Source: Verrucomicrobia bacterium 12-59-8 (lineage in GTDB: Bacteria; Verrucomicrobiota; Verrucomicrobiae; Verrucomicrobiales; Verrucomicrobiaceae). From it: 20,322 bases of DNA. The stretch is from the NCBI GenBank assembly GCA_002279765.1, contig NCCR01000097.1:1-20322 (forward strand), in the 5' to 3' direction. The notes beneath the pieces are model-generated. The model saw only the letters and a program-made list of their open reading frames with translations. It had not been told where the DNA came from and ran no database searches. Position 1 is the first letter of the stretch; the number at the start of each line of letters is the position of its first letter. Shown in pieces: positions 3,415 to 18,049 of this stretch. A program made the translations under genes and the position numbers.

Positions 3415-5487
3415 TCAAGTGCGTGCTTGTTCCACCCGCTGCACATCCAGCGTGTAGCCTGCTCCATTATCAAACGGCTTCACCTCTCCCGTGACCTGCA
3501 CGACGGGATAGCGCACGGTGTTCAAACCATAAACGCGGTACGCAGCGGCAAAGATTTCACACTCCACGATGCCGGTGCGGTCGCAGATGGAGATGAACTT
3601 CATGGGCTGGCCGTTTTGCTGCAAATGGGAGCGGCTGACGATGATGAGGCCGCAGACGGTGACGCGTTGATTGGGGTAGCGGTGGAGTTCGGCAATCGGG
3701 CAATAGGTTTGCCAGGCCGCCTGCGGGTACAGGTCCAGAGGATGACCGCTGACGGTGTAGCCGAAGAGTTCGAGTTCATCGTGCAGCTTTTGCAGCGCAG
3801 TGGGTTCTTCACGGAAGGTGGCGCGGATGTCGTCTTCGCGGGCGGTGCGAAAGAGCCAGTCGGCCCCGGCACTCGCATCACGCGAACTGTGCAGGCAGCG
3901 CCAGAACTGCTCGGTGCGGGAACTGCCCACGGAATCAAACGCACCGGCACGAATGAGGTTCAGCGCTTCGGTGCCTTCGGGGCGGACACGCTCGCAGAAG
4001 TCGCGCACGCTGGTGAACGCAGCGCGGGCACTCTCACTGCGCCAGCGGGCGAGCGTGGCATCACTGAGGTCTTTGATGCAGCGCAGGGGCACACGGATGA
4101 CTTTGCCCAAAGCGGGAGCAGGCGTGCCATGATCCACGCTGCGGGGTTCCACGGTGAAGAGGTCGCTGAGCAGGTTCACGTCGGGAGAGAGGAAGCCGAT
4201 ACCGAGGCGGCGGCACTCCAGCGTATAGACCAGCGCGGAGTAGAATCCTTTGCCATTGCTAAGCACACCGGCCATGAACTCAGCAGGGTGGTAGTGCTTG
4301 GCATAGGCTCCCTGGTAAGCCTCCACGGCATAGGCGGTGCTGTGCGCCCGGCAGAAAGCGTAGCCTTGAAACCCGGCCACCAAGTCCCAGACATAGGCGG
4401 TGCTGCGGGCATCACGCCGACGCGCTTTGGCCGCCTGCATGAACTCGGCTTTCACCTCGTTGATCTTGGCCTTGTCCTGTTTGACCAAGGCACGGCGCAG
4501 CACATCGGCCCGGCCTGCGGGCAGTCCGGCGAAGGCTTCGCAGATTTGCAGGATGTGCTCTTCATAAGCCACCACGCCAAAGGTGGAGCGCAGCACGGGA
4601 GCGAGGCTGTCGTGCGTGTAGTCCACGGGTTCAAGCCCCTGCGCACGGCGGGCAAACTGCGCTTTCTTGAGGCCATTGGCCGCACCGGGCCGGATGACGG
4701 AGACGATTGCCACGAGGCGGTCGATGTCGCGCACATCCGCCATGCAGGCGAGGCTGGTCATGGCGGGGCTTTCGATATGATGTACGCCGCGTGCATTACC
4801 CGTGGCGATCATGTGCCACACGCCGGGATCACTCCACGGCTCGACGGGTCCGGTGCGCGGCGGCTGCTCCGTGCCACCCAATCCGCCGACTTCGAGGGAA
4901 GCAAGATTCAAGACTGGCAAGGATGCCTGCTCTTGCGGGAATCCAGTCGTCGCGCAATCTAATGCCCCTATGCGCGACGAAGATTGGCAGCAAGTCTCCC
5001 GACAAGAATACCCTTCCGAAAACGAACCCGTCTGGACCAGCGACGGCGGCGTTGTTCGCAAAGGCATTTGGCGCTGAGGCTTGGAAGGCCCGCTAGAGGA
5101 GTCACCATGGTTCAGTGAATCTGGAGAGCGCATCACTGTCACGCATTGGTGCTTTTCAGAGGACACTCCCGACGGCCCTCCGCCACTGCCGGGGTCGTAG
5201 GGCTTCGCCAGCATTGCCTGCGTGTCCCGCAGCACGGCCAGACCGCCCTGCGCGAGGATGTCGAGCTTGATCAAGCCGACAGCCTCCACGGCATCCATAT
5301 CGAAGTGCGTAGTGGGCCAGCCCTTGGTGCTCATGAACGTGGGCGTTTGATCACGGATGGGATCACGCGAGAGCACCACGCCGCAAGGGTGCATCTTGGC
5401 GTAACGTGGAAAGCCATCGAGCATCCCGGCCATGAGCAAGGCCGTGCGCAGCGGCTCCTCCCACGGCATCAGCGGCATGGCGTGCAT
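3415..5487 (-). CDS. C-terminal part of the DinB-DnaE fusion polymerase (DnaE palm, fingers and OB fold), after the frameshift
   Basis: This continues the DnaE homology of 5363-7897 in another frame; ATG at 5487 is simply the first start after the shift. In order: KMHPCGVVLS; GLIKLDILAQGGL, holding the third palm aspartate of C-family polymerases; then an abnormal segment of about 119 residues (4845-5200). After it come WSDPGVWHMIATG and HHIESPAMTSL, IRPGAANGLKKAQF, STFGVVAYEEHILQICEAFA (DnaE2-like fingers), AFCRAHSTAYAVEAYQGAYA, a helix-hairpin-helix region, and a C-terminal OB fold (RVTVCGLIIVSRSHLQQNG to DVQRVEQART). There is no tau-binding tail, as in DnaE2 error-prone polymerases. Joined to the first part by removing one base near 5485, the product would be about 1,493 aa. 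As it stands this half lacks the first two catalytic aspartates, so it cannot act alone. Confidence 0.85.
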   Translation of the reverse strand: MHAMPLMPWEEPLRTALLMAGMLDGFPRYAKMHPCGVVLSRDPIRDQTPTFMSTKGWPTTHFDMDAVEAVGLIKLDILAQGGLAVLRDTQAMLAKPYDPGSGGGPSGVSSEKHQCVTVMRSPDSLNHGDSSSGPSKPQRQMPLRTTPPSLVQTGSFSEGYSCRETCCQSSSRIGALDCATTGFPQEQASLPVLNLASLEVGGLGGTEQPPRTGPVEPWSDPGVWHMIATGNARGVHHIESPAMTSLACMADVRDIDRLVAIVSVIRPGAANGLKKAQFARRAQGLEPVDYTHDSLAPVLRSTFGVVAYEEHILQICEAFAGLPAGRADVLRRALVKQDKAKINEVKAEFMQAAKARRRDARSTAYVWDLVAGFQGYAFCRAHSTAYAVEAYQGAYAKHYHPAEFMAGVLSNGKGFYSALVYTLECRRLGIGFLSPDVNLLSDLFTVEPRSVDHGTPAPALGKVIRVPLRCIKDLSDATLARWRSESARAAFTSVRDFCERVRPEGTEALNLIRAGAFDSVGSSRTEQFWRCLHSSRDASAGADWLFRTAREDDIRATFREEPTALQKLHDELELFGYTVSGHPLDLYPQAAWQTYCPIAELHRYPNQRVTVCGLIIVSRSHLQQNGQPMKFISICDRTGIVECEIFAAAYRVYGLNTVRYPVVQVTGEVKPFDNGAGYTLDVQRVEQART
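4845..5200. mobile_element. In-frame extra segment inside the DnaE region, perhaps a miniature inserted element
   Basis: DnaE proteins normally have about 20 residues between the KxDxLxxGxL palm motif and the following DDPxVW-like motif; here there are about 119. The extra translation (for example SGVSSEKHQCVTVMRSPDSL and ETCCQSSSRIGALDCATTG) is Ser/Gly/Cys-rich and unlike a folded polymerase domain. The DNA contains a REP-like hairpin (4912-4948). On the opposite strand it has a 35-codon ORF (4970-5077) reading MRDEDWQQVSRQEYPSENEP and ending VVRKGIWR. This looks like a foreign piece of about 280-300 bp that entered without breaking the frame. No terminal repeats or clear target duplication were found, so the element call is tentative. 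Confidence 0.4.
4912..4948. repeat. REP-like imperfect palindrome within the DnaE extra segment
   Basis: The outer arms GACTGG (4912-4917) and CCAGTC (4943-4948) flank an inner hairpin (4921-4944), which on the minus strand reads GGATTCCCGC, loop AAGA, GCAGGCATCC, with two mismatches. The GGATTCCCGC arm recalls dispersed palindromic repeats seen in many bacterial genomes. Copy number in the genome is unknown. Confidence 0.5.
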
Positions 5488-7897
5488 CCGTCCACGGCAT
5501 GTGCTCGGTGAGGCGACGAATTTCGTTCTCGGCGACACCGAGCACCTTGGCGACATCGCCAAACGCGGAGCGGGCCTGGAAGGTATTGAACCCACCCACG
5601 ATGGCCGCGTGCTCGGGGCCGTAGCGATCCAGCAGCAGACGCACAACGTCGTCTTTGCGGTCATGCGCGAAGTCGATGTCGATGTCCGGCAGCTTTTGCA
5701 GCGCCATGCGGTCGCGGTTGAGGAAGCGTTTGAAGTAAAGCTCAAAGCGGATGGGGCAGACGTTGCTGATGCCGAGCGCGTAGCACACCAGCGAATCCGC
5801 CGCACTGCCTCGGGTGATCCAGCCAATGCCAAGAGCGGCGCACTCCTGGAGCAAATGCCAGACGGTGAGGAAGTACTCTTCATATCCAACCTCCGCGATG
5901 ATGGAAAGCTCCTCGCGCAACTGCGCCTCGTGCTGCTTGGCCTTGCTGCCGTAGCGGTTGCGCAGGCCGTCATGCGCAAGCCGATACAGCATGGCCGCAG
6001 CCGTGCTGCCATCGGCAGGAGTGTAGAGTGGAAAGCGCAGGGTTTTGAAATCGAAAGCAAACTCGCACTGCAACACGATGTCCTGCGCGGCCTGCATAGC
6101 GGCTGCGGAATAACTCCATTGTGCAGGCGGATGAAAAGCGAGGTCACCGCGCCGTTTCTTCGCATGCTTCTCATGCAGCAGCGTGAGCGTCTTCATGCTC
6201 TGCACGATGTCGAAGAACACCTTATCCTCCGCCTTGTGATAACGAATCTCCGGTAATGCCACAGCGGTGCTGTCAGCCGCCAGGATGATCAAGCCCTCAC
6301 GGTAATCGTGCATTTGTGCCGGAGTGATGCAGGCATCGTTATTGAACGAGAGCAAACGGCACAGGTTTTGGTAGCCGCGCACGTTCTGCACATAGGCCAG
6401 CAGCGGCTTCTTATCGCAGCACAGCTCCGCGCCAATGATGGGCTTGATCCCGGCGGCTGTTGCGGCCTCGAAGAACGGCACGGAGGCGTGCAGATTTTTA
6501 TCCGTGAGCGCCACCGCAGGCATGTCATGCGCAGCAGCAGCTGCGATGATGGCGGGAATCGTGAGCGTGGAATCAAGAAAGCTGTAGCAGCTCTTCACAT
6601 TCAGCGCAGGCACGGCGAGACGTGCGGTAGGGCTGATGATTTGTGGCCCCGTGCTGTGACGCTCCCGCAAAACGCGATTCGTCACGCTGGCAGTGGGATC
6701 GGTAACAAGCTGCGGCTTGGGCAAAGTTTGCCGAGGTGCCTGCCGGTGCTGCGAGAGCCACAGATCATGCCCGCGCATGATGCTGCGATTTCCACGACGA
6801 AGATCGTCCACCACGAGCGAGAGCGTGTGCAGGCGCTCGCGTTTCATGTCGGACTGCTCCAGCGGCAGCACATTGCAGAAGCCCGTCTCATACACCTTGG
6901 TGAAGCGCAGGCCGATGAGGCGTACGCTGACTCGGCGCTCCCACGCACGGGTGAGCATGGCTTGCAGCAGCGGATAAAGATCATGCTCCAGGTCGGTTGG
7001 TTCATCGAGACTGGTGGAGCGTGTCACCTCGTCCATGTCGTTGTAGCGCAGGCGCAGTGTCACGGTGCGGATGCTTTTGCCATCCTCGCGCACACGGCGC
7101 ATGAGCGTATCCGCCATGGCCCGCAGACGGGCGATGATGAAGGCGGTATCCGTGGTGTCCTGCGCGAAGGTTTCCTGCTCGCCGTAGCTTTTCGCCGCAG
7201 GGGCATCGCAGACCACCGGGCGGAGGTCATTGCCCAGAGCGTAGTCATGCAGGGCCGGGGCACCGGAACCGACGAGCAATGAAAGCTCATCCACCGGCGT
7301 ACGCGCAATGTGCTCGACCATGCGCAGCCCGGCGGTGTTGAGCCTGGCCGCGAGTTGCGGGCCGACCTGCGGCAGCCATTTGTTTTCCAGCGGCCAGAGA
7401 AAGCCCTGCTCATAACCGGGAGCCACTTCGATGAAGCAATGCGGCTTGCGCAGCTTGCTGGCGATCTGCGACACCAGCTTGTTCGTCCCCACACCCACGG
7501 ACACTGAGAGCTTCAAACTCTGCGCGATGGCCTTCTGCATTTTCGCCGCAGCGTCACAGGCCTTTGTCTGCCTTGCGCCGTGGAGATCGAGGTAGCATTC
7601 ATCAATCGAAGCCAGCTCCACGATGGGCGTGAAGTCATAGGCATACGAAAACATCAGGTGCGAGAAGCGCTCGTACTTGTCGAAGTCACACGGCAGCACG
7701 ATGAGATTGGGGCAGAGCTTCCGCGCCCGTGCGGTGGGCATGGGCGTGTAGATGCCCAGCTTCCGCGCCTCATAGCTGGCGGAGGCGATGATGCCGCGCC
7801 GCTCGCCACCCACCGCCACCGGGCGGCCTCGCAGCTTTGTATCAGCCGCCTGCTCCACGGAGGCAAAGAACGCATCCGCATCGAAGTGCAGAATCAT
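5363..7897 (-). CDS. N-terminal part of a DinB (Y-family) - DnaE (C-family) fusion DNA polymerase, frameshifted near 5485
   Basis: Residues 1-370 are a Y-family translesion polymerase: FDADAFFASVEQ (5-16, catalytic Asp6 and steric-gate Phe11), RKLGIYTPMPTARA, SIDECYLDL (97-105, catalytic Asp99/Glu100), SVSVGVGTNKLVSQIASKL, a helix-hairpin-helix, and a little-finger domain. All catalytic acids are present, so it is DinB/Pol IV-like and not the inactive ImuB. A Pro-rich linker (386-428) leads into a DnaE module. Its PHP domain starts ALNVKSCYSFLD (431-442) and has TDKN at 465-468, where family metal ligands (LHxHS, TDH) are replaced. The palm follows with RGSAADSLVCYALGI (696-710) and PDIDIDF (737-743, catalytic Asp pair). 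Homology leaves this frame at about residue 804 and resumes at 5484 with a net one-base shift; the last about 40 codons here are out of frame. The start is 6 bp after the UmuD-like stop codon, so the two are probably co-translated under LexA control. Confidence 0.9.
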   Translation of the reverse strand: MILHFDADAFFASVEQAADTKLRGRPVAVGGERRGIIASASYEARKLGIYTPMPTARARKLCPNLIVLPCDFDKYERFSHLMFSYAYDFTPIVELASIDECYLDLHGARQTKACDAAAKMQKAIAQSLKLSVSVGVGTNKLVSQIASKLRKPHCFIEVAPGYEQGFLWPLENKWLPQVGPQLAARLNTAGLRMVEHIARTPVDELSLLVGSGAPALHDYALGNDLRPVVCDAPAAKSYGEQETFAQDTTDTAFIIARLRAMADTLMRRVREDGKSIRTVTLRLRYNDMDEVTRSTSLDEPTDLEHDLYPLLQAMLTRAWERRVSVRLIGLRFTKVYETGFCNVLPLEQSDMKRERLHTLSLVVDDLRRGNRSIMRGHDLWLSQHRQAPRQTLPKPQLVTDPTASVTNRVLRERHSTGPQIISPTARLAVPALNVKSCYSFLDSTLTIPAIIAAAAAHDMPAVALTDKNLHASVPFFEAATAAGIKPIIGAELCCDKKPLLAYVQNVRGYQNLCRLLSFNNDACITPAQMHDYREGLIILAADSTAVALPEIRYHKAEDKVFFDIVQSMKTLTLLHEKHAKKRRGDLAFHPPAQWSYSAAAMQAAQDIVLQCEFAFDFKTLRFPLYTPADGSTAAAMLYRLAHDGLRNRYGSKAKQHEAQLREELSIIAEVGYEEYFLTVWHLLQECAALGIGWITRGSAADSLVCYALGISNVCPIRFELYFKRFLNRDRMALQKLPDIDIDFAHDRKDDVVRLLLDRYGPEHAAIVGGFNTFQARSAFGDVAKVLGVAENEIRRLTEHMPWTDARHAADAVGGAAAHGLAHGRDARWLSTLRQDAPLRRGALA

Positions 7898-7903: not shown

Positions 7904-8356
7904 TCAGCTCTTGGAAAGCCGCAGCAGCGCGATGAGTACCCCCTGGATGACCAGCTCCCGCGCCGGAATCAGGTCAGGGTACTTCGGATTCGAGGCACGC
8001 AGGTAAGGCACGCCGTTTTGCACGACGAAGCGCTTCAGGGTCGTCTCGCCGTCGATCAAAGCTGCCACGATGTCGCCATGCTTCGCCTCACGGAACTCCA
8101 TAATGACGATGTCGCCCTCCAGAATGGCCGCATTGCGCATGGAGTCGCCCCGGACTTTCAGGGCAAAGGTGCGAGCGTTTTTGGGCAGTCGCAGCGTCGT
8201 GGGGTCGATGTCGATGCAGCCATCCACCCGCCCCTCTTGCTGTTCAGGCTTACCCGCGATGATGCTGCCCAAAAGTGGAATCTGGTGGCGAATCCACGAG
8301 CGGGCTTCGGACAGCCAAAGGAAATGCAGGGACTTGCGCTGGAATGGGGTGATCAT
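7904..8356 (-). CDS. UmuD/LexA-like self-cleaving S24 protease without DNA-binding domain
   Basis: 150 aa with a complete LexA-fold peptidase. The cleavage site is Ala34-Gly35 in PLLGSIIAGKP. The catalytic Ser72 is in VRGDSMRNAAILEGDIVIM and the catalytic Lys108 in DGETTLKRF. Only about 33 residues precede the cleavage site, so there is no helix-turn-helix, as in UmuD. By family knowledge, RecA-stimulated self-cleavage would yield a UmuD'-like partner that licenses a translesion polymerase. Here the adjoining polymerase gene starts 6 bp downstream. The first residues (TPFQRKSLHFLW) resemble LexA's first helix, suggesting descent from a LexA that lost its HTH. The ATG at 8356 is only 9 bp from the predicted -10 box, so the mRNA would be leaderless or nearly so; no convincing ribosome site is present. 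It could be named umuD, but sequence alone does not separate UmuD from a truncated LexA. Confidence 0.9.
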   Translation of the reverse strand: MITPFQRKSLHFLWLSEARSWIRHQIPLLGSIIAGKPEQQEGRVDGCIDIDPTTLRLPKNARTFALKVRGDSMRNAAILEGDIVIMEFREAKHGDIVAALIDGETTLKRFVVQNGVPYLRASNPKYPDLIPARELVIQGVLIALLRLSKS

Positions 8357-8364
8357 GCGCCACC

Positions 8365-8392
8365 CATATACTGTTCTTTAGAACAGTTTCAA
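8365..8392 (-). promoter_or_regulatory. LexA-controlled promoter with operator in the spacer
   Basis: Read on the minus strand: -35 TTGAAA (8392-8387), a 16-bp spacer, and -10 TATATG (8370-8365). The spacer contains the perfect palindrome TGTTCTAAAGAACA (8372-8385). This is exactly the TGTTC-N4-GAACA operator reported for Verrucomicrobia LexA, placed where a bound repressor would block RNA polymerase. It drives the UmuD-like gene and the fusion polymerase. It overlaps the last codons and stop of the upstream SRAP gene, so that gene is not covered by this promoter. Confidence 0.88.
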
Positions 8393-9172
8393 TTGCGGAC
8401 TTGCTTCATTTTCAACAGAGACCGGCTCATCCCCCGCCTGTGGAACAGGGGGCGCTATCGGGCGCAACGCCTCCTCACTCTTGTTACGGGCCTGATTGGC
8501 GGCAGTGGAGACGCGATAGGCCTCCAGGTGCTCGCTTTCATAGGGCTTGAAGAGGGCGCGGAGGGCGTCCGCCTGCATGCCCGGCTGCATCCAGGCGAGG
8601 GCGTTTTCGTCTTCCAAAATCAGCGGAGAGCGGTCGTGGAACTTCGCCATGTAGCGCCCCGGCGGCGTAGTGACCACGCTCATGGAGGTGATGACGGGAC
8701 CGCTTTCAAAATCTTCCGGGTGGGGACTCTCCCACACATCCCAGATGCCCGCCAGCAGTAGCGGCGCATCGTCCGTGCGATGGATGAAGTAGGGCGTCGT
8801 GCGGTCCGGCCACTCATGCCAACCGCGCACCGGAATGAGGCAGCGCTGGCGCAGAATCGGCCCCCGGTAGGAAGCCAGCTCAAAGACGCTCTCACAACGG
8901 GCATTGAACGTGAGTCCAAACTTCTTCGCCACCTCCGCCTTGCTGCCCTTGGCCCAAGATGGCACGAGGCCAAAGCGCATGCGCTCCATGCCCACCTCGC
9001 CAGCTTCCATGGTGAGCACGTCGGCATAGTCCGTGGGGCAGATGTTGTTGACCACCTGCACCCCGGCCTTCTTGTCCTCGTCCTTTTTCGCTTTGCGCCG
9101 CTCAATGCGCAGCTTCTTCCCCGCGAGCGAAAGCGCAGGGATACTCGCAAACTGGTTCAGACGGCCACACAT
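8378..9172 (-). CDS. SRAP-family (YedK/HMCES-like) abasic-site DNA-protein crosslinking protein
   Basis: 264 aa. The start is set at ATG 9172 because the family needs Cys directly after the initiator Met (MCGRLNQ); the longer in-frame start at 9190 would bury it. Family landmarks: Cys2, NNICPTDYADV (42-52), MRFGLVPSWAKG (65-76), FNARCES with Asn90, CLIPVRGWHEW with Glu120, and KFHDRSPLIL with His179. The processed N-terminal Cys attacks the aldehyde of an abasic site in single-stranded DNA, forming a thiazolidine crosslink that shields the lesion; the Glu and His assist formation or reversal. A basic insert (residues 20-36, Lys/Arg-rich) near the N-terminus could add DNA affinity. It sits between hsdM (169 bp upstream) and the LexA-controlled polymerase pair, matching the known association of SRAP genes with SOS mutagenesis genes. 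I see no LexA box of its own. Confidence 0.93.
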   Translation of the reverse strand: MCGRLNQFASIPALSLAGKKLRIERRKAKKDEDKKAGVQVVNNICPTDYADVLTMEAGEVGMERMRFGLVPSWAKGSKAEVAKKFGLTFNARCESVFELASYRGPILRQRCLIPVRGWHEWPDRTTPYFIHRTDDAPLLLAGIWDVWESPHPEDFESGPVITSMSVVTTPPGRYMAKFHDRSPLILEDENALAWMQPGMQADALRALFKPYESEHLEAYRVSTAANQARNKSEEALRPIAPPVPQAGDEPVSVENEASPQLKLF

Positions 9173-9292
9173 GGGCGCAGCAAAGCGCACTCAGCCGTAG
9201 AGGCAAATCAGAACGCACTGAGCACGATCAAGGTGGTGGATTTAGGATGCCCCAACGCCTGCCACAAACGAAAAGACAGCCCAATAGCTTGC

Positions 9293-9314
9293 CTCCCCAC
9301 CGCTCATCTCTGCA
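9293..9314. repeat. 22-bp block shared with the HsdM-like remnant 3' flank (copy 2)
   Basis: Lies 27 bp downstream of the hsdM stop codon. On the minus strand it begins TGCAGAGATGAGCGG and matches 2321-2342 at 20 of 22 positions. A 21-residue ORF starting MSGGEASYWAVFSFVAGVG begins inside it (9307 to 9242). It may be a relic of a gene that once followed the modification subunit. Confidence 0.6.
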
Positions 9315-9341
9315 AATGTCGGCACGGTCCTTTCCAATGCT

Positions 9342-10838
9342 CTAAGCCTTCTTCGCCAGCTTCGCCGCGATTTTAGCGAACATCTCCTGTGCGGTCGCCA
9401 GCTCGTCGGCTATCTCGGTCGCGATGATGTCGGGCGCGGGCAGGCTGTCGGTGTCGGTAAGGCTTTGGTCTTTGATCCAGAAGAGGTCTAGGCTCAGCTT
9501 GTCGCGCTTCACCAGTTCGGCGTAGTTGTAGCTCCGCCAGCGTCCATTCGGGTTCGTCTCGCTCCAGGTGGCCTTGCGCTTGGCGGTGGCTCCCGGCTTG
9601 TAGCACTCCACGAACTCGTCGAAGTCCTTCCGCTGAATCGGTGACTGCTTCTGGGTGAAGTGCAAGTTCGTGCGCAGGTCATACACCCACAGCTTGTCTG
9701 TCCAGGCTTGCTTGCGCCCTTCCATCTTTTCAAAGAAAAGCACGTTCGCTTTCACGCCGGGGGAATACCAGATGCCCGTGGGCAGGCGTAGCAGCGTATG
9801 CAGGCGGCACTTCTCCAGCAGGTGCTTGCGCACCTTCTCACCAGCCCCGCCTTCAAAGAGCACGTTGTCAGGCAGCACCACGGCAGCGCGCCCGTTGATC
9901 TTGAGCAGGCTGTAAATGTGCTGCACGAAGTTGAGCTGCTTGTTGCTCGTGCTTGTCCAGAAATCCTCGCGCACGATCACTTGATCATCTTTCTCGGTGT
10001 CGCCTTCCTCGTTCACGAATAGAAGGTTTTGCTTTTTGCCAAACGGCGGATTGGCGAGAATCATCGAATACTCCCGGCTCCACGGCGCGGCGAGGCTATC
10101 GTGCCCCGTGTGCATCACGATCTTATTTCCGCCGATGCCGTGCAAATAGAGATTCATCGCACACATGCGCCCAACCTTGGGCGAAAGCTCCATGCCCTCG
10201 ATGAGCTCCTCGCGGAGTTTCTTCTTTTCCTCGCGGTCGAGCGACTTCTCGAAACGGTCGAGCACATGCTGAAAAGCTACACAGAGAAAGCCGCCCGTAC
10301 CGGCGGCAGGGTCGCAAATGCTGTCTTGCGGCGTGGGCTGCATCACCTCGCACATCGTTTGAATAACCGGGCGCGGAGTGAAGTACTGGCCTGCGCCGCG
10401 TGCCGATTCGGAGGCGCTGCGCTGCATGAGTTCTTCGTAAATCGTGCCTTTCACGTCCACGGGCAGGCCAAGCCAGTCTTCCTTGTCGATAAGGTTCACG
10501 ATGAGCTGTTGCAGCAGCGCAGGATTGTGAATCTCACAGCGGGCATTCTTGAAGATCACTCCCAGCATCCCCTTGGAATGGGAGAGCTTCTCCAGGATGT
10601 CCCTGTAATGATCCTCCAGCGCCGCCCCGCTCCTGTTGAGCAGGGACTTCCAGCCGTATTCCTTCGGGAATGAAGCAGGCTGGTTATAGGGCGGCTCGGT
10701 GAGCTGGTCCGCCATCTTGAGAAAGAGCAGCAGCGTGAGCTGCTCCACATACTCGAAACAACTCAGGCCCGCGCCTTGTAAAACGCCAGCATAGCTCCAG
10801 GCGCGTTTGCCAATGGTGGATGAATCTATCAGGGACAT
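9342..10838 (-). CDS. hsdM: Type I restriction-modification system, modification (N6-adenine methyltransferase) subunit
   Basis: 498 aa with the HsdM layout. An N-terminal helical domain (about 10-140, CFEYVEQLTLLLFLKMADQL) is followed by GAGQYFTPRPVIQTM (148-162), the AdoMet-binding motif DPAAGTGGF (176-184), and the catalytic motif NPPFG (263-267). A C-terminal helical region ends in KIAAKLAKKA. It transfers a methyl group from AdoMet to N6 of adenine in the HsdS-defined site, and in the full complex marks self DNA. The start is 2 bp after the hsdS stop (TGATTATG arrangement), indicating translational coupling. Gene order hsdR-hsdS-hsdM is less usual than R-M-S but complete. The length is normal, with no broken motif. 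Confidence 0.96.
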   Translation of the reverse strand: MSLIDSSTIGKRAWSYAGVLQGAGLSCFEYVEQLTLLLFLKMADQLTEPPYNQPASFPKEYGWKSLLNRSGAALEDHYRDILEKLSHSKGMLGVIFKNARCEIHNPALLQQLIVNLIDKEDWLGLPVDVKGTIYEELMQRSASESARGAGQYFTPRPVIQTMCEVMQPTPQDSICDPAAGTGGFLCVAFQHVLDRFEKSLDREEKKKLREELIEGMELSPKVGRMCAMNLYLHGIGGNKIVMHTGHDSLAAPWSREYSMILANPPFGKKQNLLFVNEEGDTEKDDQVIVREDFWTSTSNKQLNFVQHIYSLLKINGRAAVVLPDNVLFEGGAGEKVRKHLLEKCRLHTLLRLPTGIWYSPGVKANVLFFEKMEGRKQAWTDKLWVYDLRTNLHFTQKQSPIQRKDFDEFVECYKPGATAKRKATWSETNPNGRWRSYNYAELVKRDKLSLDLFWIKDQSLTDTDSLPAPDIIATEIADELATAQEMFAKIAAKLAKKA

Positions 10839-10840
10839 AA

Positions 10841-12475
10841 TCAGGTACTCTTGCTGGCGCGTTTGCTCGCGGCCTTCTTCATTAATGGTTTGGCCTGCTT
10901 GCTGGCGCTCTGGGTGGCAGCGCGGGCACTAGCGGCCACGCGGGCACGTTCTGCCCGTTCGGTGGCGATGCGTTTCAGCAGTTCGGCGGCGGGTTCGTCG
11001 TTCGGGTATTGCCGCACGAGTTGGCCGGTGAAGGCGTGGCGTAGGATGGATTGCCGCAAACCTTTGGCACTCTTGAGCTTCGCGGCGATGTCGGCCTCCA
11101 GATGGTCAATCACGGAAAGCTGCGCTTCTACGGCTTCGACGATTGCTTCTTGCTCCGCGAGTGGAGGGAGAGGTAAAACAATCTTCGCGAGGTCGGGCTG
11201 TGCAATCTTCCAGATACCTGCGGTTGTCTTCGCTGCTTTTTCAATTTGCGTTCTGGCGCAGCTAGACGCCCATAAGACAGGGAAAAGACGTGTTTCCTTG
11301 ATGGCCGGAACAAACCGGAGTCTCATCATTGTATCGGGAAATATCACCGCATCTGGTGGCTCTTGCGCGGTGGTGCCACGGCCAACGAGTTTCTTTGAGC
11401 CATTGCCCCGACAAACAAAGAAATCGCCATCTTCAATCCACAGATCGTCCACATCTTTTTCCCTCAGCGGAAGCCAGCGACGCTTGGAATAATCAAAGCC
11501 ATTCTCAGACATGGCACTCAAACGAAGCGCGGCAATACCTGGGGGCGAATCACTGCCTTTCACTGAGATGCCGTTAATGATTGGAGGCACGCTAAGTGTG
11601 TCAACGTTTGTCCAAATCCAACTATCCGGCAGGCTTGGCGAATTGGGCTTTTCGGGCAATTGTGGTTCACGATACCTTGCCTTCCAATTTTTCGGCGGCT
11701 CTTTACCTGCTTCCCGGAACTTGCGGAGCTGGTCTTCTTCCCAGCGGCGGCGGCGTTCGGTGAGAATGCGGGAGAGCAGGGCGGAGGCGGGTTCGGTGTC
11801 GGGGTGTTGGGCGCGCCAGTCGGCAGTCAAATCACCCTCTACGGCAGCTTTCAACACGGCAGCGCGGTAGTGCTTGAGCTTCTTCTGCACCCGCTCCAGC
11901 GCAGCGACTCCAGCGTCGAGATCGGAGAGAAGTTCGTCGAGCGTGTCCGCGATACGTTCTTGTTCTCGGCTAGATGGCAAGGCAAACGGGACAGTTTTCG
12001 CCAACGGCTCGGCTGCGATGCTGGCTTGATTAACGTGATTCTTGCAGCGATGCAGGAAGTACCCTGACATCCAAAGAAAATGAAGTTGCTTGGCTGTGAA
12101 AACAGAACTCATGCCATCTTCCAACCGGATGCGCGTCATGTGGTTGGAATACGCCATGCGGTCATCAATGGGAATGGCTGTTGTTTTACCAATCAGCTCT
12201 GGACTGTTGGTATTGTTGAACAGCACATCGCCTTTCTGAACGAGCTTCGGAACCTCGCCTGTCAGATGCTTCACAAAGCTAAGATCAAACCTGCCTTCCC
12301 TGTCGACGTTCATCGGGCGAAGGTGCGGAACGCCCTCGCCGCTTGCATTATGAGCGCCGGACGGAAAACCGGATGAAATATCCTTCGCAATTGACTCTAT
12401 GGCAACCAATGACCAGCCATCAGGTAGGGGCGATGATCGGAGCGGATGATGATCGAAAACAAATGGTTCACTCAT
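10841..12475 (-). CDS. hsdS: Type I restriction-modification system, specificity subunit
   Basis: 544 aa with the two-repeat HsdS plan. Target-recognition domain 1 (about 15-160) begins PLPDGWSLVAIESI. A conserved coiled-coil spacer follows (about 170-225, SREQERIADTLDELLSDLDA). Domain 2 (about 285-430) begins SLPDSWIWTNVDTL. A second conserved helix (PLAEQEAIVEAVEAQLSVID) and SILRHAFTGQLV come next. Each domain reads one half of a bipartite DNA site. The tail (about 505-544) is Arg/Lys/Ala-rich, ending in KKAASKRASKST, and extends past the usual HsdS end; it may add nonspecific DNA binding. The ATG overlaps the hsdR stop by 4 bp (12472-12475). The recognition sequence cannot be predicted from this. 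Confidence 0.95.
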   Translation of the reverse strand: MSEPFVFDHHPLRSSPLPDGWSLVAIESIAKDISSGFPSGAHNASGEGVPHLRPMNVDREGRFDLSFVKHLTGEVPKLVQKGDVLFNNTNSPELIGKTTAIPIDDRMAYSNHMTRIRLEDGMSSVFTAKQLHFLWMSGYFLHRCKNHVNQASIAAEPLAKTVPFALPSSREQERIADTLDELLSDLDAGVAALERVQKKLKHYRAAVLKAAVEGDLTADWRAQHPDTEPASALLSRILTERRRRWEEDQLRKFREAGKEPPKNWKARYREPQLPEKPNSPSLPDSWIWTNVDTLSVPPIINGISVKGSDSPPGIAALRLSAMSENGFDYSKRRWLPLREKDVDDLWIEDGDFFVCRGNGSKKLVGRGTTAQEPPDAVIFPDTMMRLRFVPAIKETRLFPVLWASSCARTQIEKAAKTTAGIWKIAQPDLAKIVLPLPPLAEQEAIVEAVEAQLSVIDHLEADIAAKLKSAKGLRQSILRHAFTGQLVRQYPNDEPAAELLKRIATERAERARVAASARAATQSASKQAKPLMKKAASKRASKST

Positions 12476-15369
12476 GCGGCGAGACGTTCATTCAGTTCGG
12501 CCATGATCGGATTGAGTTGCTCGCCAAAGAGCTTATGTGCGGCACTGAGGCTGCCGTGCTGGCTGAACCAGCCTTCTTGGAAGTCGTCGCGTTCAATGCT
12601 GAGGTTGTTGGCAATGGTGTCGGCCATGCGGTCAAGCCATTCGTTTTGTTCCTCGGTGAAAGCAATCTCATTGCGTGCCTTCTCCAGCTTCCACAAGATG
12701 AAGTTTTGCCGCACATCGGCGCGGTAAGGTTCCAGCGGTGTCTCGGGCGCGATGGCATGGCGCACGAGCTTCACAATGTCGGTGAGCATTTCACCGGGGC
12801 GCTCGGCGGGCGAGGTGGCTGCTGGCGCTGCCACTTTGGCACCTGTCTCGGTGATTTCAAACGCACGCCAGAGCTGCAATGGGGTGACATTCAGCGGCGG
12901 ACGGGCGAGGGCATCACGAAGCTGTTTCAAGTCCCGCAGCCCGATACGCAAGGGGCGCGTGCCTGACCAGAGCACTTGCAGCGCCGTGAGTTCGTCCTTG
13001 TTCTCAGCTATCCAGGCGCGGAAGTCCTGAACCTTCGCCCGTGCCTTTTCGCGTGAAGCGTCACTCAAGCCAGAGCCGATGATTTCATCTGGGTTGATGC
13101 GGTCAATCACTTGCTCGTTTTGCTGGCGTATCTCCATCAAACGGCGGCGAAACGCTGGCTTCAAGATGGGCGTGACAGCGGCCTGTGCGAGCTGCTCTGC
13201 CGCCTTGGCGAGTTGCTCCTCGGAGGGCGCACCCTTCAAGCCAGGAAGGGCCAGTGCGGCCTCGGCCTGTGACTCGGGATTGATGGCGTTTAGAAGATTG
13301 TGCGCGATTTCGGCAAGCGTCTTGCCACCCGCGAGGCTTTGCAGTTCGGTGAGCTGGTCGCCTGTAAACTCACGTTGAAGCCGTGCCAGTCGTCCGGCGA
13401 GTGTCTCCAGCGCGTCCTCGTGCAAACCGCCTTGGCCGACATACTCCAGCAATTCCTTCAAGCTGGCGGAGGGTTTGCGGTTCAACGTATGAGAACCGCA
13501 TTTGTCTTCTTCGCACACGCCCACGGCATCCACGATGATAAAGCGGTCTTTCACTTTCGCTGACGGGGTGACAACGCGGAGCTTGTCCGGCGTAATGACA
13601 CGCACGCCCCGGCCTTTCATCTGCTCAAAGAATGCGGCGGACTTCACATTGCGCATGAAGAATACGCACTCGATAGGCTTCACGTCCGTTCCAGTGGCGA
13701 TCATGTCCACAGTGACGGCAATGCGCGGATGAAAGCTGGTGCGGAAATTTCCAAGAATTTCCTCCGGCGTGAGATTGGAAGTGCGCACCCAAGTGACGAT
13801 TTTGATAGGCTCGCCTTTATCGTCCTTCAAAACATTGCCTTGTTCGTCCTTGGCTTCTTCCTCCCTGCGCGTGAAGCCGGTGCGATAGGTGATCTTTTGG
13901 CAGAAGTCGTTCCCTTCGTGAAACACCTCGCGGCAAATGCGCACGATGTCGTCGGCATGGGAATCATCCTTGGCAAAGATCAAGGTCTTTGGCACTTCCT
14001 TGCGCCCAGGGAAGCAGGCCGGAAGGGTGCCTTCTTTGAAATGGTTGAGTACGCAGCGTATTTGCGGCTCGGATACCACATCGCTGTCGAGCTGGTTCGC
14101 GGTATAGGTGAGGTCACGATTGAGCAATTCCAGGCGCTCGGCTCGCGTGAGCTTGTGGCGCTTATCCACAAAGGTTCCGGTTTCTTCGGCCTTAATCGTA
14201 GCGCCTTGTTCGGTGATGCGTGTGCGAATGCGGTAAACGTCGAAATCCACGTTCACCGTATCCGTGACGGCCTCGGCATGGCCGTATTGCATCACCAGAT
14301 TCTGATTGAAGAAGCTGAGGGTGCGGCCTGCGGGCGTGGCAGTCAGGCCGATGAGGAAAGAATCGAAATAAAGCAAGACTTGGCTCCAAAGGTCATAAAT
14401 GGAGCGGTGGCACTCATCCACGATGATGATGTCGAAAAACTCGGGCGGGATGGCGGCATTGTACTCCACCTTCGGCGGCTCACCTTGCCACGGCTTCGCA
14501 GAGTCAAAGCCGGAACCTGTTTCGTTTTCCTCGTCGAACTCCGTATCGCCTTTCAGCATGGAGAACAGGCGTTGGATCGTGGTAATGACGACTTTAGCGG
14601 CGGGGTTGATCTTGTTGCCCTTGAGGCGCTGCACCGTGTAAAGCGTCGGGAACTTGCGTGGGTCGTCGGTCGGAGTGAAGTCGGCAAACTCATCCTCAGT
14701 CTGCTTGCCCAGATTCGAGCGATCCACGAGAAACAAGACACGCTTGGCATCGGCAAATTTCAGCGTGCGATAGCTGACATTCACAGCGGTAAAGGTCTTG
14801 CCCGAACCCGTGGCCATCTGAATCAGCGCACGCGGATCACCCGCAGCAAAGGATTTTTCCAGCCCGGTGATGGCTTGCTCCTGCACCTTCCAAAGGTCGG
14901 CAGCGTCCAGAGGCGGCATTTGCTGGAGCCGTGCCCGAAGCTGGAGCGGCTGCTCCACGAGTTCGGCCAGCGTTTCAGGGCGCGGAAAGTTGAACACCTT
15001 TCGACTGCGCGGCACGGGATCGAGTCCATTCGTGAAGTAAGTCACGGAACCGTTCGACTCGAAAAGGAAGGGCAGCGGGCGCTTGTGCGCAGGGAGATTG
15101 TCTGGCAATCCGGCAGCATACTTGGCCGATTGAGCTTCCACCCCCGCAAGCGTGCCCGCAGCCTTGGCTTCCACGGCTCCGAGTGCTTTGCGGTCCACAT
15201 AGAGCAGGTAATCGGCAAAACCAAAGCCGGACTTCATCACGAATTCCCGAACCGCTATGCCGCGCCCGGCGGTGATGTCGATGTCTTGCAAGTCCTGAAC
15301 CAGCCAGCCAGCGGCAACAAGATCTTCGTCGATCTGGCGGCGGGCTTTCTGTTCGGGTGTTTCAGGCAT
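12472..15369 (-). CDS. hsdR: Type I restriction-modification system, restriction/translocase subunit
   Basis: 965 aa from ATG 15369, chosen because the N-terminus MPETPEQKARRQIDEDLVAA matches the family; a TTG ten codons upstream (15399) is also possible. Domains: a PD-(D/E)xK nuclease (Asp53, with Glu67 and Lys69 in GAVEAKA); a superfamily-2 motor with Walker A ATGSGKT (about 186-192), DECH box VDECHRS (318-323) and LTATP (342-346); a second RecA lobe with TVDMIATGTDVKPIE and MKGRGVRV; then a C-terminal helical region for HsdM contact. The complex translocates unmodified DNA with ATP and cuts at a distance. The gene follows the ATPase gene by about 100 bp and overlaps hsdS by 4 bp. All key motifs are intact, so restriction should be active. 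Confidence 0.95.
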   Translation of the reverse strand: MPETPEQKARRQIDEDLVAAGWLVQDLQDIDITAGRGIAVREFVMKSGFGFADYLLYVDRKALGAVEAKAAGTLAGVEAQSAKYAAGLPDNLPAHKRPLPFLFESNGSVTYFTNGLDPVPRSRKVFNFPRPETLAELVEQPLQLRARLQQMPPLDAADLWKVQEQAITGLEKSFAAGDPRALIQMATGSGKTFTAVNVSYRTLKFADAKRVLFLVDRSNLGKQTEDEFADFTPTDDPRKFPTLYTVQRLKGNKINPAAKVVITTIQRLFSMLKGDTEFDEENETGSGFDSAKPWQGEPPKVEYNAAIPPEFFDIIIVDECHRSIYDLWSQVLLYFDSFLIGLTATPAGRTLSFFNQNLVMQYGHAEAVTDTVNVDFDVYRIRTRITEQGATIKAEETGTFVDKRHKLTRAERLELLNRDLTYTANQLDSDVVSEPQIRCVLNHFKEGTLPACFPGRKEVPKTLIFAKDDSHADDIVRICREVFHEGNDFCQKITYRTGFTRREEEAKDEQGNVLKDDKGEPIKIVTWVRTSNLTPEEILGNFRTSFHPRIAVTVDMIATGTDVKPIECVFFMRNVKSAAFFEQMKGRGVRVITPDKLRVVTPSAKVKDRFIIVDAVGVCEEDKCGSHTLNRKPSASLKELLEYVGQGGLHEDALETLAGRLARLQREFTGDQLTELQSLAGGKTLAEIAHNLLNAINPESQAEAALALPGLKGAPSEEQLAKAAEQLAQAAVTPILKPAFRRRLMEIRQQNEQVIDRINPDEIIGSGLSDASREKARAKVQDFRAWIAENKDELTALQVLWSGTRPLRIGLRDLKQLRDALARPPLNVTPLQLWRAFEITETGAKVAAPAATSPAERPGEMLTDIVKLVRHAIAPETPLEPYRADVRQNFILWKLEKARNEIAFTEEQNEWLDRMADTIANNLSIERDDFQEGWFSQHGSLSAAHKLFGEQLNPIMAELNERLAA

Positions 15370-15371
15370 GG

Positions 15372-15397
15372 GGAAGATGAATAGAGCAGCATCTTCC
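15372..15397. promoter_or_regulatory. Perfect 8-bp inverted repeat at the hsdR start
   Basis: GGAAGATG and CATCTTCC, separated by 10 bp, end two bases before the hsdR ATG at 15369. It could be an operator or an RNA hairpin that hides the start region and limits restriction-enzyme synthesis. If translation starts at the TTG at 15399, the repeat is coding. Function not known. Confidence 0.4.
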
Positions 15398-15465
15398 AAC
15401 CTTCAAACATCCAATCATCTTGGCCGGGCAATATTCTTACCCAATCCAAAGGTGGTTTTTCCTAT

Positions 15466-16629
15466 TCACTCCACCGGCCCTGCACCCGTATGCAGACCGA
15501 TCTCTTTCCCCTCAATTTTTAACATGTGAGAGAATCGGCCATTAGCAGCCAGTGCCGCGTAGCACGCCTTGTTCTGCGCCCCCGTAAGCTCCATCAGCCG
15601 CCGCACTGCTTCGCCCTTGGAATGATGCACCCGGCCATTCTCGAAAAGCTCGCGAATATGCTGCTCCGTGATCTTCTCATTGTGTCCACCCGCGCCACCG
15701 CCCGCACATTCCGAGAAATCGAAATTGGCAATCTCATCAAAGCCCCGGTCGGTTTGCTGCAAGGCATGCTTGGCACCCTCGCTCTTGCCATTCGAGTTCT
15801 TGAGCAGAGTTGCCACCACGCGCCTGTCTCCTGATTGCTCAGTGACTCGCTCCAGCTCGATGATGGTTCGTGGCTTGCGCCGCAAGACTTGATGGCCGCT
15901 GATTGCGTGAAGCCTTCCGTTGCCGTCTGTGTCCTCGCTCTTGGGCTTGCGCCTGTGATGCACCAGCAGCCAGCACGGGCGTACCGGCAGCCCGAAATTG
16001 ATCGCCTTCATGCCGCGAAACATGAACGAAAAATCCTTCGCCGTCTCATCCACCACCGCACTCGAAACCGTGTCCAGAATCACCACCTTGATTCCCTTTT
16101 CCTCAACGATTCGCCGCGTATGCGCCACAAAGGCAGGGTCGGCAACATCCATCGTTTCCGGCACATCAGTGATGAAAATCCATTTCTCGAAATCAGGCGG
16201 CAGCATCCCCGCCGCGTGCAATGCCTTCAACTGATTAGCGAGACGGCGCTTGTTGTTTTCATCACCGATCCAAAGCGTTGCAAACTGGCATTTGATCTCA
16301 TGGCCCAGCCAGCGCCCCCGCCCCCACGCCGCCTTTACCATCAAGTCCATGATGGCCCAGCTTTTCCCCACCGATGGGAAACCAAACAGCATGGCGAACT
16401 CTCCAATCTCCAGCACGGCATCACCGCAAAGCACCTCGCCAGGCTGTTCCTGGTAATCAAGCAATTCCAGCAAGTCGAGCAGCTCATACGGCGGTGCGGC
16501 TGCCTGCGTTTTCTTCTTTCCATTTTCACCCTCCAGTGGTGACCTCTGGAAAGCCGGTTGCACCTCTGCATCGTCTGGCAACGGATCATAAGCCCCGGCC
16601 TTGGCTCCTGCTTTGGGCTTCGCACTCAT
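15466..16629 (-). CDS. RecA/RepA-like AAA ATPase (replicative helicase or helicase-loader type)
   Basis: 387 aa from ATG 16629, which overlaps the primase stop codon by 4 bp; the frame stays open further upstream inside the primase gene, but that stretch is not protein-like. Motifs: Walker A GFPSVGKSW (83-91), a DEN-containing loop (LWIGDENNKRRL, 119-130), Walker B VVILDTV (182-188), and LLVHHRRK (221-228). HAISGHQVLRRKPRTIIEL (241-259) corresponds to the conserved arm of plasmid RepA-type hexameric ATPases. A C-terminal winged-helix-like region follows (about 320-375, EQHIRELFENGRVHHSKGEA). The low-complexity N-terminus (1-45) is Lys/Gly/Ala-rich. The family includes DnaB-fold helicases encoded by plasmids, satellites and islands, next to small primases, as here. 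This predicts self-directed replication of the element; it might alternatively act as a regulatory ATPase. Confidence 0.8.
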   Translation of the reverse strand: MSAKPKAGAKAGAYDPLPDDAEVQPAFQRSPLEGENGKKKTQAAAPPYELLDLLELLDYQEQPGEVLCGDAVLEIGEFAMLFGFPSVGKSWAIMDLMVKAAWGRGRWLGHEIKCQFATLWIGDENNKRRLANQLKALHAAGMLPPDFEKWIFITDVPETMDVADPAFVAHTRRIVEEKGIKVVILDTVSSAVVDETAKDFSFMFRGMKAINFGLPVRPCWLLVHHRRKPKSEDTDGNGRLHAISGHQVLRRKPRTIIELERVTEQSGDRRVVATLLKNSNGKSEGAKHALQQTDRGFDEIANFDFSECAGGGAGGHNEKITEQHIRELFENGRVHHSKGEAVRRLMELTGAQNKACYAALAANGRFSHMLKIEGKEIGLHTGAGPVE

Positions 16630-17612
16630 GGGCAAACCTCCAATATCTGAGGATTCGCCCGCATGCTTGCCGCGCTCGCCTTCGCGAACAGGTCGCCTAG
16701 GTCTTTGATGGCCTGCCCGCTCGCATCCACGATGCCAGCGAGGGAGAAGCCATCCACCACAGCGCCCGCATTCCGCAGACTCCGCGCCCATGACTGCGCC
16801 GCCCTCTGCCCCGGTTCATCCATCTGCGGAATGATCCGCACGCGCTTCCCGGCCATGCGTGCCGCCACGTCGGGCGACAATTGCACCGCCGCCCCCATGC
16901 AGCACAGCGCCGCCACATCTGCCGCCCGCCCTTCGCCATCAATCACGGCATGCGCCGCGAGGAAGTCCCCCACGCCTTCCACAAGCAGCAGATTTGCAAA
17001 CGCCTCCGCCTCGATCAATCCCACCGGCCACGTCTTGTCTCCAAAGCAATGCGCCTTTCGTGGCGGCACATGCCTCCATTCCGGCCACAGCTCGCCATCC
17101 ATCCGCCGCAATTCGGCACCGCGCCGCGCTGCATCCGTGATGCACCAGAACGCCCTGCCCCACTGCTGCCCGAAGTGAAGAAAGCCCCGCTCATCCGCCA
17201 GCCGCACTGCAAGCAATGACAGCGTACGCAGTTTCGCCAGCGCCTCCAGTTCCTCCACCGTGCCGCGCCCCATCGCCGGCCACGGCTTCGCTTTGCGCAC
17301 CTGTTCGCGTTTGGGCGGGAGAGGCGGCACTTCGCGGACTTCGCCCACCTGCTCACGCATCCAGCGCACAGCGCCCGCTATATCGCAATCGAGCGCCTTC
17401 TTGATGAAGTCCACCACATCAAAGGTTTCACCCGTCGCGAAATCCTTGGCCCGTGTGCCCTCAGCATACACGGAAAAGCTCGCGTGCTTCTCCTCCGGTC
17501 GAAACGGTGATTTGCTGCTATTCCCCGGCTCCCCTGGAAGATGCAGCAGCCGCCACGCCTCATCAATCCGCAGCCGTGCCTTCAACTCTTGAATCGAACT
17601 TGCCGCGTTCAT
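16626..17612 (-). CDS. Toprim primase-like protein with degenerate CHC2 zinc finger
   Basis: 328 aa. The N-terminal part (about 20-85) follows the DnaG zinc-domain plan (SPFRPEEKHASFSVYAEG, then DFATGETFDVVDFIKKAL), but the Cys/His zinc ligands are absent, with Ser at the CPFH position. The C-terminal part is a toprim fold: LLLVEGVGDFLAA (208-220, acidic Glu212) and RVRIIPQMDEPGQRAA (257-272), where the usual DxD is QMD. Between them is a linker rich in Lys/Pro. Proteins of this shape accompany RepA-like ATPases in plasmids, phages and islands and are thought to prime or initiate their replication; activity with the altered metal residues is uncertain. Its ATG overlaps the preceding HTH gene by 4 bp (17609-17612) and its stop overlaps the ATPase start, so all three are made together. 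Confidence 0.8.
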   Translation of the reverse strand: MNAASSIQELKARLRIDEAWRLLHLPGEPGNSSKSPFRPEEKHASFSVYAEGTRAKDFATGETFDVVDFIKKALDCDIAGAVRWMREQVGEVREVPPLPPKREQVRKAKPWPAMGRGTVEELEALAKLRTLSLLAVRLADERGFLHFGQQWGRAFWCITDAARRGAELRRMDGELWPEWRHVPPRKAHCFGDKTWPVGLIEAEAFANLLLVEGVGDFLAAHAVIDGEGRAADVAALCCMGAAVQLSPDVAARMAGKRVRIIPQMDEPGQRAAQSWARSLRNAGAVVDGFSLAGIVDASGQAIKDLGDLFAKASAASMRANPQILEVCP

Positions 17613-17959
17613 ACCTCCGCCCCTTCCCCATGGCCCGCCTTGCTGCGCAGGAACGCCGAAAGCTTGTCCTTATCAATGAGCACCGCCCCACGCACACGCC
17701 CCGGCAGCCGCGCCGAAATGAAAGCACCCGCCGCCTTCGCCGCCGCAACAAGGCCCGAACGGCTCAAACCCGTGAACCGGCAGCGACTCTTAGGCGAAGG
17801 CAGCCGCAAAAACTCCGCCTCGTGAATCGGAGCCGGTTCAAAGCGCTGCTCCATGCCCTGCGGCAGATTCCCCGCCACGGATGGGCGGCTCGTCTTAATC
17901 CCCGGCAATCCGCCCTTGGCTGCCGTGAATGATTTGTGTTGGCTTGATGGAGTGTTCAT
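17609..17959 (-). CDS. Small helix-turn-helix (AlpA/excisionase-like) protein
   Basis: 116 aa from ATG 17959; a GTG at 17989 would add ten residues, and neither start has a strong ribosome site. The C-terminal half (FLRLPSPKSRCRFTGLSRSG to AGAFISARLPG, then GAVLIDKDKLSAFLRSK) follows the AlpA/MerR-type pattern: a helix-turn-helix, a wing with RLPG, and a closing helix. Such proteins act as excisionases or as activators of integrase genes in satellites and islands. The N-terminal half is polar and unrecognised. As first gene of the coupled HTH-primase-ATPase unit it is well placed to control the element. The call rests on pattern and context rather than on a strong motif. Confidence 0.7.
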   Translation of the reverse strand: MNTPSSQHKSFTAAKGGLPGIKTSRPSVAGNLPQGMEQRFEPAPIHEAEFLRLPSPKSRCRFTGLSRSGLVAAAKAAGAFISARLPGRVRGAVLIDKDKLSAFLRSKAGHGEGAEV

Positions 17960-18049
17960 GTCCGTGATCTCGTTAGAGATTGCGGACACTCATTTATAAT
18001 CGCTGATAACTTTTAACAGCACACGAGGCTTCGTTTTTTGTTCTCGAAA

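Follow-up and report, generated by a model that had tools for sequence, protein, structure and literature searches.

A putative LexA-regulated, single-chain mutasome: fusion of a Y-family and a DnaE2-type DNA polymerase in Verrucomicrobiota

We analysed a 20,322-nt stretch of DNA from Verrucomicrobia bacterium 12-59-8 (contig NCCR01000097.1, positions 1 to 20,322, hereafter the window), whose minus strand carries a gene joining a Y-family DNA polymerase to a C-family (DnaE-type) one. We propose, with a probability of roughly two in three, that this fusion is a LexA-regulated single-chain translesion mutasome, present in the window as a broken copy within an S24-polymerase operon behind a LexA-type box. 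The features that carry this proposal are read from sequence: the fusion itself, two sets of catalytic acids, the loss of the HxH metal pair in the PHP domain, the box, and an S24 neighbour with a predicted cleavage site and catalytic dyad.

The polymerase fusion and its distribution

The Y-C fusion is real and conserved in many Verrucomicrobiota as one open frame of about 1,360-1,500 residues. When genomes were scanned with the first open reading frame (ORF) of the window gene, 26 loci were found, 23 of them from Verrucomicrobia by title, and 15 of the 26 contained an uninterrupted ORF of 1,380-1,488 residues. A protein search gave 1,826 matches; among the matches listed, 117 of 120 combine PF00817 with PF07733 in a single chain, and the three others are shorter (1,055-1,096 residues). 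Names that carry the fusion in this search include Prosthecobacter vanneervenii, P. fluviatilis, P. dejongeii and P. fusiformis and a Chthoniobacteraceae bacterium. Brevifollis gellanilyticus NBRC 108608 has an intact fusion ORF, and 26 of 68 genomes of its family match at E ≤ 1e-120, the query's own genome counted. These family matches comprise 20 full-length stop-free copies, each a single row, two copies in several pieces of one frame (genomes G435 and G422), a full-length row with a TGA (G400) and partial rows. Further out, at least 27 of 236 genomes match in the class of genome G343 (E ≤ 1e-150), 22 of the 27 with an open frame of 1,346-1,610 residues, and at least 9 of 387 match in a phylum sample (E ≤ 1e-100), both counts being lower bounds with two candidates scored per genome. 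The phylum matches include three intact fusions, one apparently split over two contigs, an unfused DnaE2 (L050 in G008) and, in four genomes, a DnaE match alone (frame of 1,156-1,186 residues, ~34% identity). The fusion is patchily distributed.

Since 117 of the 120 listed relatives are one-chain and the family holds 20 full-length stop-free copies, chance joining is excluded, and an assembly artefact at the Y/C junction is ruled out by the intact copies in many genomes. The original prediction, made from the window alone, had left it to be seen whether the same architecture occurs in other Verrucomicrobiota or whether all homologues are separate genes and the junction is artefactual; the joined form prevails among the listed relatives, with intact ORFs and an open junction in many genomes. 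A viral origin is ruled against by a scan of viral contigs with six short patterns, which found no relative, and by phage records, where 0 of 1,308 partial matches reach 80% query coverage. Among plasmids, 4 of the best 5,000 records cover 80% of the query in one place.

Several genomes have more than one fusion copy (three in G003; two each in G004, G404, G441 and G510), and beside other fusion copies the window genes matched are S24 alone and sometimes SRAP (SOS response-associated peptidase). Brevifollis also has a remnant, a fusion fragment continuing into an unrelated ORF (G001:C22:60911-62086, L033), and locus L023 has an intact S24 gene yet just 76 matching residues of the fusion.

Catalytic residues were counted in 129 full-length proteins (113 from the protein search and 16 from loci; 125 distinct), which remained of 136 once seven shorter than 1,300 residues had been left out. 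The Y-family acids are kept almost without exception (D6 and E100 in 129/129, D99 in 128/129), the protein of L019 being the sole member with E for the second Asp, and the four C-half polymerase aspartates are kept in 129, 128 (one gap), 129 and 129. The HxH pair of the PHP domain is replaced by N and K/R in all 129. The ratio of nonsynonymous to synonymous substitution rates (dN/dS) in four intact pairs was 0.04-0.06 for the Y half and 0.08-0.09 for the C half. As judged from these alignments, both halves are under purifying selection and both active sites are conserved, which supports the original prediction of a potentially active inserter covalently joined to a potential extender. A dead Y domain of the ImuB type is ruled out by the Y acids kept in 128-129 of 129 proteins. 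With its PHP metal site lost and its polymerase aspartates kept, the C half has the marks of a DnaE2; that it might be a DnaE1 is ruled out by the lost HxH pair and by its tree position (see below). In NCBIfam, the first part scores best with Pol IV models (up to 267 bits, UmuC reaching 59.5) and the rest with DnaE/error-prone polymerase, all of these polymerase matches scoring below their curated cut-offs.

In the window, the gene reads as two overlapping ORFs, 7897-5363 (844 residues), with IMS, IMS_C, PHP and DNA_pol3_alpha in Pfam, and 6174-3415 (919 residues), with the remaining DNA_pol3_alpha, the finger domain, HHH_6 and the OB fold (Table 1). Pfam thus confirmed the domains of both polymerases, and the motifs quoted in the original prediction are present; its premise that correcting one base restores one gene did not hold. 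Compared with six intact relatives, the window gene follows them in frame -2 as far as ~5459-5480 and again, in frame -3, from 5460, and is ~34 nt shorter. Because ~34 nt are missing near 5459, in addition to a 297-nt in-frame insert, the copy is not broken by a single base, and a single-base error is ruled out as the cause of the split frame. The insert occupies the place of six codons in L001; it is missing in eight of nine aligned relatives, and L009 has a different insert there. A repeat search of window positions 4700-5300 found none. At two places in L009 (around 9262-9337 and 10757-10859), the Y/C linker and this same loop, in-frame inserts stand between inverted repeats. As the comparison stands, the window copy is either broken or misassembled, its predicted product being an 844-residue protein that keeps the entire Y domain but has a truncated DnaE palm. 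Past the break, dN/dS is still low (0.09-0.20 in the short palm part, 0.09-0.10 from finger to OB), so the break is recent or technical.

Table 1. Features of the fusion gene and its upstream neighbours in the window
Feature	Position	Strand	Evidence
Fused Y-family/C-family DNA polymerase gene, broken copy in two frames	3415..7897	-	ORF search, Pfam, homology map against six intact relatives
Y-family catalytic domain IMS; D6, D99 and E100 present	7454..7882	-	Pfam IMS E 1.4e-45
Y-family little-finger domain IMS_C	6893..7192	-	Pfam E 1.9e-23
RecA-NT-like stretch (L..vvD.LR...rSIMRGHDLW), status uncertain	6758..6844	-	Conserved columns, model helix, profile match
Linker between both polymerases, predicted flexible	6608..6748	-	Low pLDDT, variable columns
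PHP domain with HxH metal pair lost	6263..6604	-	Pfam PHP E 1e-20
DnaE palm part 1, with PDIDIDF	5483..5992	-	Pfam DNA_pol3_alpha E 1.5e-46
Break site: ~34 nt of relatives' sequence absent, frame change	5455..5485	-	tblastn and blastn against intact relatives
DnaE palm part 2, with further aspartate (KLDILAQ)	5209..5460	-	tblastn 95% identity to L001 residues 825-908
Stop-free stretch, mostly insert, 297 nt	4912..5208	-	Alignment and homology map
DnaE fingers, HhH, OB fold	3421..4911	-	Pfam finger E 7.4e-29, HHH_6 E 9.1e-13, OB E 1.7e-7
S24 autopeptidase gene, headless LexA/UmuD-like: A-G site, GDSM serine, TLKR lysine	7904..8356	-	Pfam Peptidase_S24 E 3.4e-22
LexA-type box TGTTC-N4-GAACA, 29 nt before S24 start codon	8372..8385	-	0 mismatches
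SRAP gene	8378..9190	-	Pfam SRAP E 9.4e-50

The S24 neighbour, the LexA-type box and the surroundings

Directly upstream of the fusion lie an S24 gene, a LexA-type box and an SRAP gene, all absent from the original prediction. We compared the 24 loci with readable upstream DNA (the window, L001-L021, L023 and L047), which encode 23 distinct S24 proteins. An S24 gene of 149-151 codons immediately precedes the fusion in 24/24, and the A-G site, the GDSM serine and the TLKR lysine are present in every one of its products. Pfam found no LexA_DNA_bind domain in the three proteins scanned (in the window protein none up to E 1, and no helix-turn-helix (HTH) there); by this layout, an S24 domain of cleavage type lacking an HTH, they appear UmuD-like. 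In NCBIfam the window protein scores higher with LexA (89.7 bits, its best match) than with UmuD (68.1 bits), both scores being below the curated cut-offs. The S24 core had a dN/dS of 0.045-0.064 in six of seven scored pairs and 0.125 in one.

The palindrome TGTTC-N4-GAACA, which we take to be the Verrucomicrobia LexA motif (that of Erill et al. 2016), lies 27-31 nt ahead of the S24 start codon with 0 mismatches in all 24 loci, whereas 1,200 single-base shuffles yielded no perfect match. When the scan was widened to 53 fusion starts, some of which belong to the same gene, 50 had the box. The same palindrome occurs near recA in 5/6 loci and near four of nine genes matched by a LexA DNA-binding model, the other five, Brevifollis included, being without a perfect copy; it also lies ~0.7 kb ahead of an ImuB-like ORF of Brevifollis (L104, contig C11). 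Its presence near recA and some lexA genes supports TGTTC-N4-GAACA as a LexA motif. These findings point to a putative LexA-type operator at the S24-polymerase promoter, and the fusion looks damage-inducible.

By eye, the box sits between TTGAA-like and TATA-like hexamers close to the ATG (window 8350-8395, and in the same place elsewhere), and since all of these lie so near the ATG the S24 mRNA may be almost leaderless. SRAP was matched upstream of S24 in 12 of 22 loci and not in the other 10, with neighbours in other loci matched against relatives of 11 window genes; no LexA-type box was found before SRAP in the 11 loci where it was recognised, the best sites having 3-5 mismatches.

We also fetched 20 upstream stretches from other families of the class, 18 of which had a readable Y start. 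An S24 gene lies upstream in 16 of the 18 (12 ending within 77 nt, four 185-619 nt off), and 14 of these 16 neighbours have a LexA DNA-binding domain. The headless proteins form one group in an S24 tree (93/91), within a larger group (100/97) shared with the LexA proteins of the same genomes. That they stem from a dedicated repressor beside the fusion is unsupported, for they group with housekeeping-type LexA and two fusion neighbours, apart from the other 14. On this tree, their ancestry is the LexA family, with no finer source. In about half of the L154-L171 genomes looked at, differing palindromes lie ~16-25 nt before the LexA-like start codons (by eye, without statistics), as would fit dedicated LexA-like repressors with their own operators; in the others that span holds no such palindrome.

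The rest of the window bears on the setting of the gene. Its 14 ORFs given to Pfam include no ImuA- or ImuB-like one, in agreement with the original prediction that neither is nearby. Type I restriction-modification genes hsdM, hsdS and hsdR (Pfam) lie directly upstream of SRAP on the same strand (9342-15399), a resolvase-type recombinase lies at 3-758, and 15466-19840 encodes an AAA_25 ATPase and three ORFs with no Pfam match. The recombinase at one end and the ATPase and unmatched ORFs at the other suggest a mobile or genomic-island setting.

Relatives, structure and comparison with known systems

A C-half tree, built by a quick method with Shimodaira-Hasegawa-like approximate likelihood-ratio (SH-aLRT) support only and with many long branches flagged, placed 27 fusion rows, the window piece included, in one clade (100). 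Next to it came the unfused L050 (100), then Bacteroidota DnaE2 with Desulfosarcina (96). The fusion C half stood apart from DnaE1 and from the group of Novosphingobium, Pseudomonas, Brevifollis (L040), Streptomyces and Abditibacteriota DnaE2, and the ImuB-linked (DnaE2A) group excluded it. One Streptomyces plasmid DnaE, on a very long branch, grouped with the ImuB-linked rows; its lineage is placed in DnaE2B in PMC12926913. Because DnaE2B is not recovered whole, we base the label DnaE2B for the fusion on the Bacteroidota rows next to it. The 27 fusion rows are likewise one clade in a Y-half tree (100/100), away from ImuB and UmuC-like rows, and the tree and NCBIfam agree on a DinB-type Y domain.

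Ten regions from the plasmid search were opened. On Bacteroidota plasmids, unfused dinB and dnaE genes are direct neighbours, with an overlap of 1 nt in Emticicia and 4 nt in Adhaeribacter; Y and DnaE genes are separate by annotation in Chryseobacterium, Emticicia, Adhaeribacter and Desulfosarcina, and as ORFs in two Persicobacter. Among the matches listed, 120/120 DnaE relatives of the Adhaeribacter protein have no IMS domain. Such adjacent or overlapping genes offer a simple path to the fusion, and loss of the stop between overlapping dinB and dnaE genes would be an easy one.

We modelled residues 1-1200 of the Brevifollis protein (L013) with AlphaFold2, using 77 alignment rows. Foldseek matched the model to DnaE 2hpi (E 5.8e-46, TM 0.54/0.56), and sequence matches to solved polymerases are clear for both halves (2hpi E 1.3e-95; 7yll E 1.7e-52). 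The predicted local distance difference test score (pLDDT) is under 50 at 386-391 and 397-425, in the linker, whose columns are variable in the alignment. Ahead of it, the model has a helix at 348-368, in a region that resembles the RecA-NT motif of Timinskas and Venclovas. Profile comparison matched this region to the tails of Bacteroidota PolY (E 3e-4) and of UmuC-like proteins (E 3.3e-4). An ungapped scan with one RecA sequence had its best window there in 58 of 129 proteins, at scores that speak against the motif (see below). This degenerate RecA-NT-like helix hints that the fusion may depend on RecA.

Of the systems known, the putative DnaE2B-PolY-RecA mutasome of Bacteroidetes comes closest; in it, an active PolY, DnaE2 and RecA have been predicted partners, encoded by separate genes, since 2019 (PMC6511836, PMC12926913). 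Both systems couple an active Y-family polymerase, as judged here by its acids, with a DnaE2-type one, and an SRAP and/or S24-type regulator lies near some plasmid examples there; unlike that two-gene system, the fusion is a single chain with a same-strand LexA-family neighbour and lacks a canonical clamp motif. On these features, it is a predicted covalent variant of the Bacteroidetes system with a LexA-family, UmuD-like neighbour. The original prediction that no such system had been described thus holds for the covalent fusion, of which we found no description in the literature searched (including PMC6511836, PMC3919608, PMC3765255, PMC8565304, PMC7739468 and PMC12926913, the supplements of the last possibly mentioning it), but not for its two-gene equivalent. 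With ImuA-ImuB-DnaE2 the fusion shares an apparently LexA-regulated pair of Y-family protein and DnaE2 with a dead PHP site. In that system, however, the Y-family protein ImuB is catalytically dead (PMC6511836) and a separate chain, and there is an ImuA; the fusion keeps the Y acids, and its C half falls outside the ImuB-linked group. Brevifollis (G001) carries both the fusion and a second DnaE2 next to a weak-IMS (ImuB-like) gene, and so departs from the DnaE2B-PolY-RecA pattern of genomes that lack ImuA and ImuB. E. coli Pol V (UmuD'2C-RecA) offers the likeness of a self-cleavable-looking UmuD-like S24 protein beside a Y-family polymerase, and of LexA-type control, but in the fusion a DinB-type Y domain is joined to another polymerase, and the S24 protein scores nearer LexA than UmuD. 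The Y catalytic domain with its acids is that of DinB/Pol IV (e.g. 7yll), a lone chain of ~350 residues there and the N-terminal third of a ~1,400-residue chain here. SRAP was reported near DinB, at times with a DnaE paralogue, in 2013 (PMC3765255).

Proposed function and its alternatives

How might the fusion work? DNA damage would take LexA off the box, and RecA filaments would trigger S24 self-cleavage and license the polymerase. The Y domain would insert opposite the lesion, a flexible linker, some 40-50 residues long, would let the primer end pass to the DnaE2 domain, and the latter would extend without proofreading; the S24 fragment would probably take the role that UmuD' has in Pol V. 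Induction, S24 cleavage and hand-over are all inferred. The original notion of a one-polypeptide machine survives as far as the two joined polymerases go; since the S24/LexA-family gene adjoins in 24/24 loci, the helix is RecA-NT-like and no clamp motif is conserved, further partners are likely. A more specific version is tentative, and we hold it at somewhat less than even odds: that a two-active-site inserter-extender chain acts with a LexA-family neighbour which, being a DNA-binding repressor in other families of the class, has here turned into a headless UmuD-like polymerase subunit under a general LexA box.

Several observations weigh against a LexA-regulated single-chain mutasome. We found biochemistry for no member, and the window copy as read cannot give a full-length protein. 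The three starts without a box in the wider scan are one gene, the deep member G343, which also has no S24 neighbour. The L013 model has a pLDDT of 76.2 and a predicted TM score of 0.61, stops at 1,200 residues and drops under a pLDDT of 50 at 72-155, inside the Y domain; its Foldseek match to Y-family 7yll is weaker (E 1.2e-16, TM 0.10/0.30), with poor superposition. Against RecA itself the RecA-NT-like region matches weakly (E 0.13), and in the ungapped scan the median at this site (12.0) is below the mean best of shuffled proteins (14.8). Finally, no conserved QxxLF clamp motif was found across the 129 proteins (best site in 44/129); such a motif is present in nearly all PolY groups (PMC12926913).

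The alternative that survives best, and a real contender although we would not favour it, is that joining merely fixes the stoichiometry of the predicted PolY, DnaE2B and RecA complex, the two sites acting on separate events with no lesion hand-over within the chain. It would fit the adjacent or overlapping genes of the unfused relatives, the grouping of the C half with Bacteroidota DnaE2 and a linker that looks disordered in the model. That the fusion rows form a single clade in each tree and that nearly all listed relatives keep the joined form suggests, however, that linkage matters. Unlikely, in our view, is a headless S24 protein that acts as a LexA regulator titrating LexA monomers instead of as a polymerase subunit: its NCBIfam scores and its tree group with the LexA proteins of these genomes speak for this, but it precedes the polymerase at every one of the 24 loci and is laid out like UmuD, its A-G site being preceded by a short arm. 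We think it quite improbable that the chain is cut in the linker in vivo to yield two ordinary polymerases. The linker is long, poorly conserved and modelled at low confidence, and proteolytic switches (S24, SRAP) are encoded alongside; positive evidence is nil, the linker not having been searched for cleavage motifs. We are more doubtful still that the Y domain is mainly an ImuB-like scaffold for the DnaE2 domain, its own catalysis being dispensable, as the precedent of ImuB and the substitution in L019 might invite, since its acids are nearly invariant and its dN/dS is lower than that of the C half. To an assembly artefact at the window's Y/C junction we give almost no credence: ~34 nt missing and a 297-nt stretch do fall within the same gene, but in its DnaE half, and the junction is open in many other genomes.

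Studies of lesion bypass by two polymerases, an inserter and an extender, usually treat it as a swap of separate enzymes. Where nature has linked the pair covalently and left both sets of catalytic acids intact, the hand-over would become directly testable, with one site killed at a time. Since a single class has, at the same position, both LexA-like proteins that keep their DNA-binding head and a UmuD-like form that lacks it, the origin of UmuD-type subunits would become testable too. Moreover, entries of this kind, at present labelled 'DNA polymerase III subunit alpha' or 'DNA polymerase IV', gain a specific predicted role in induced mutagenesis.

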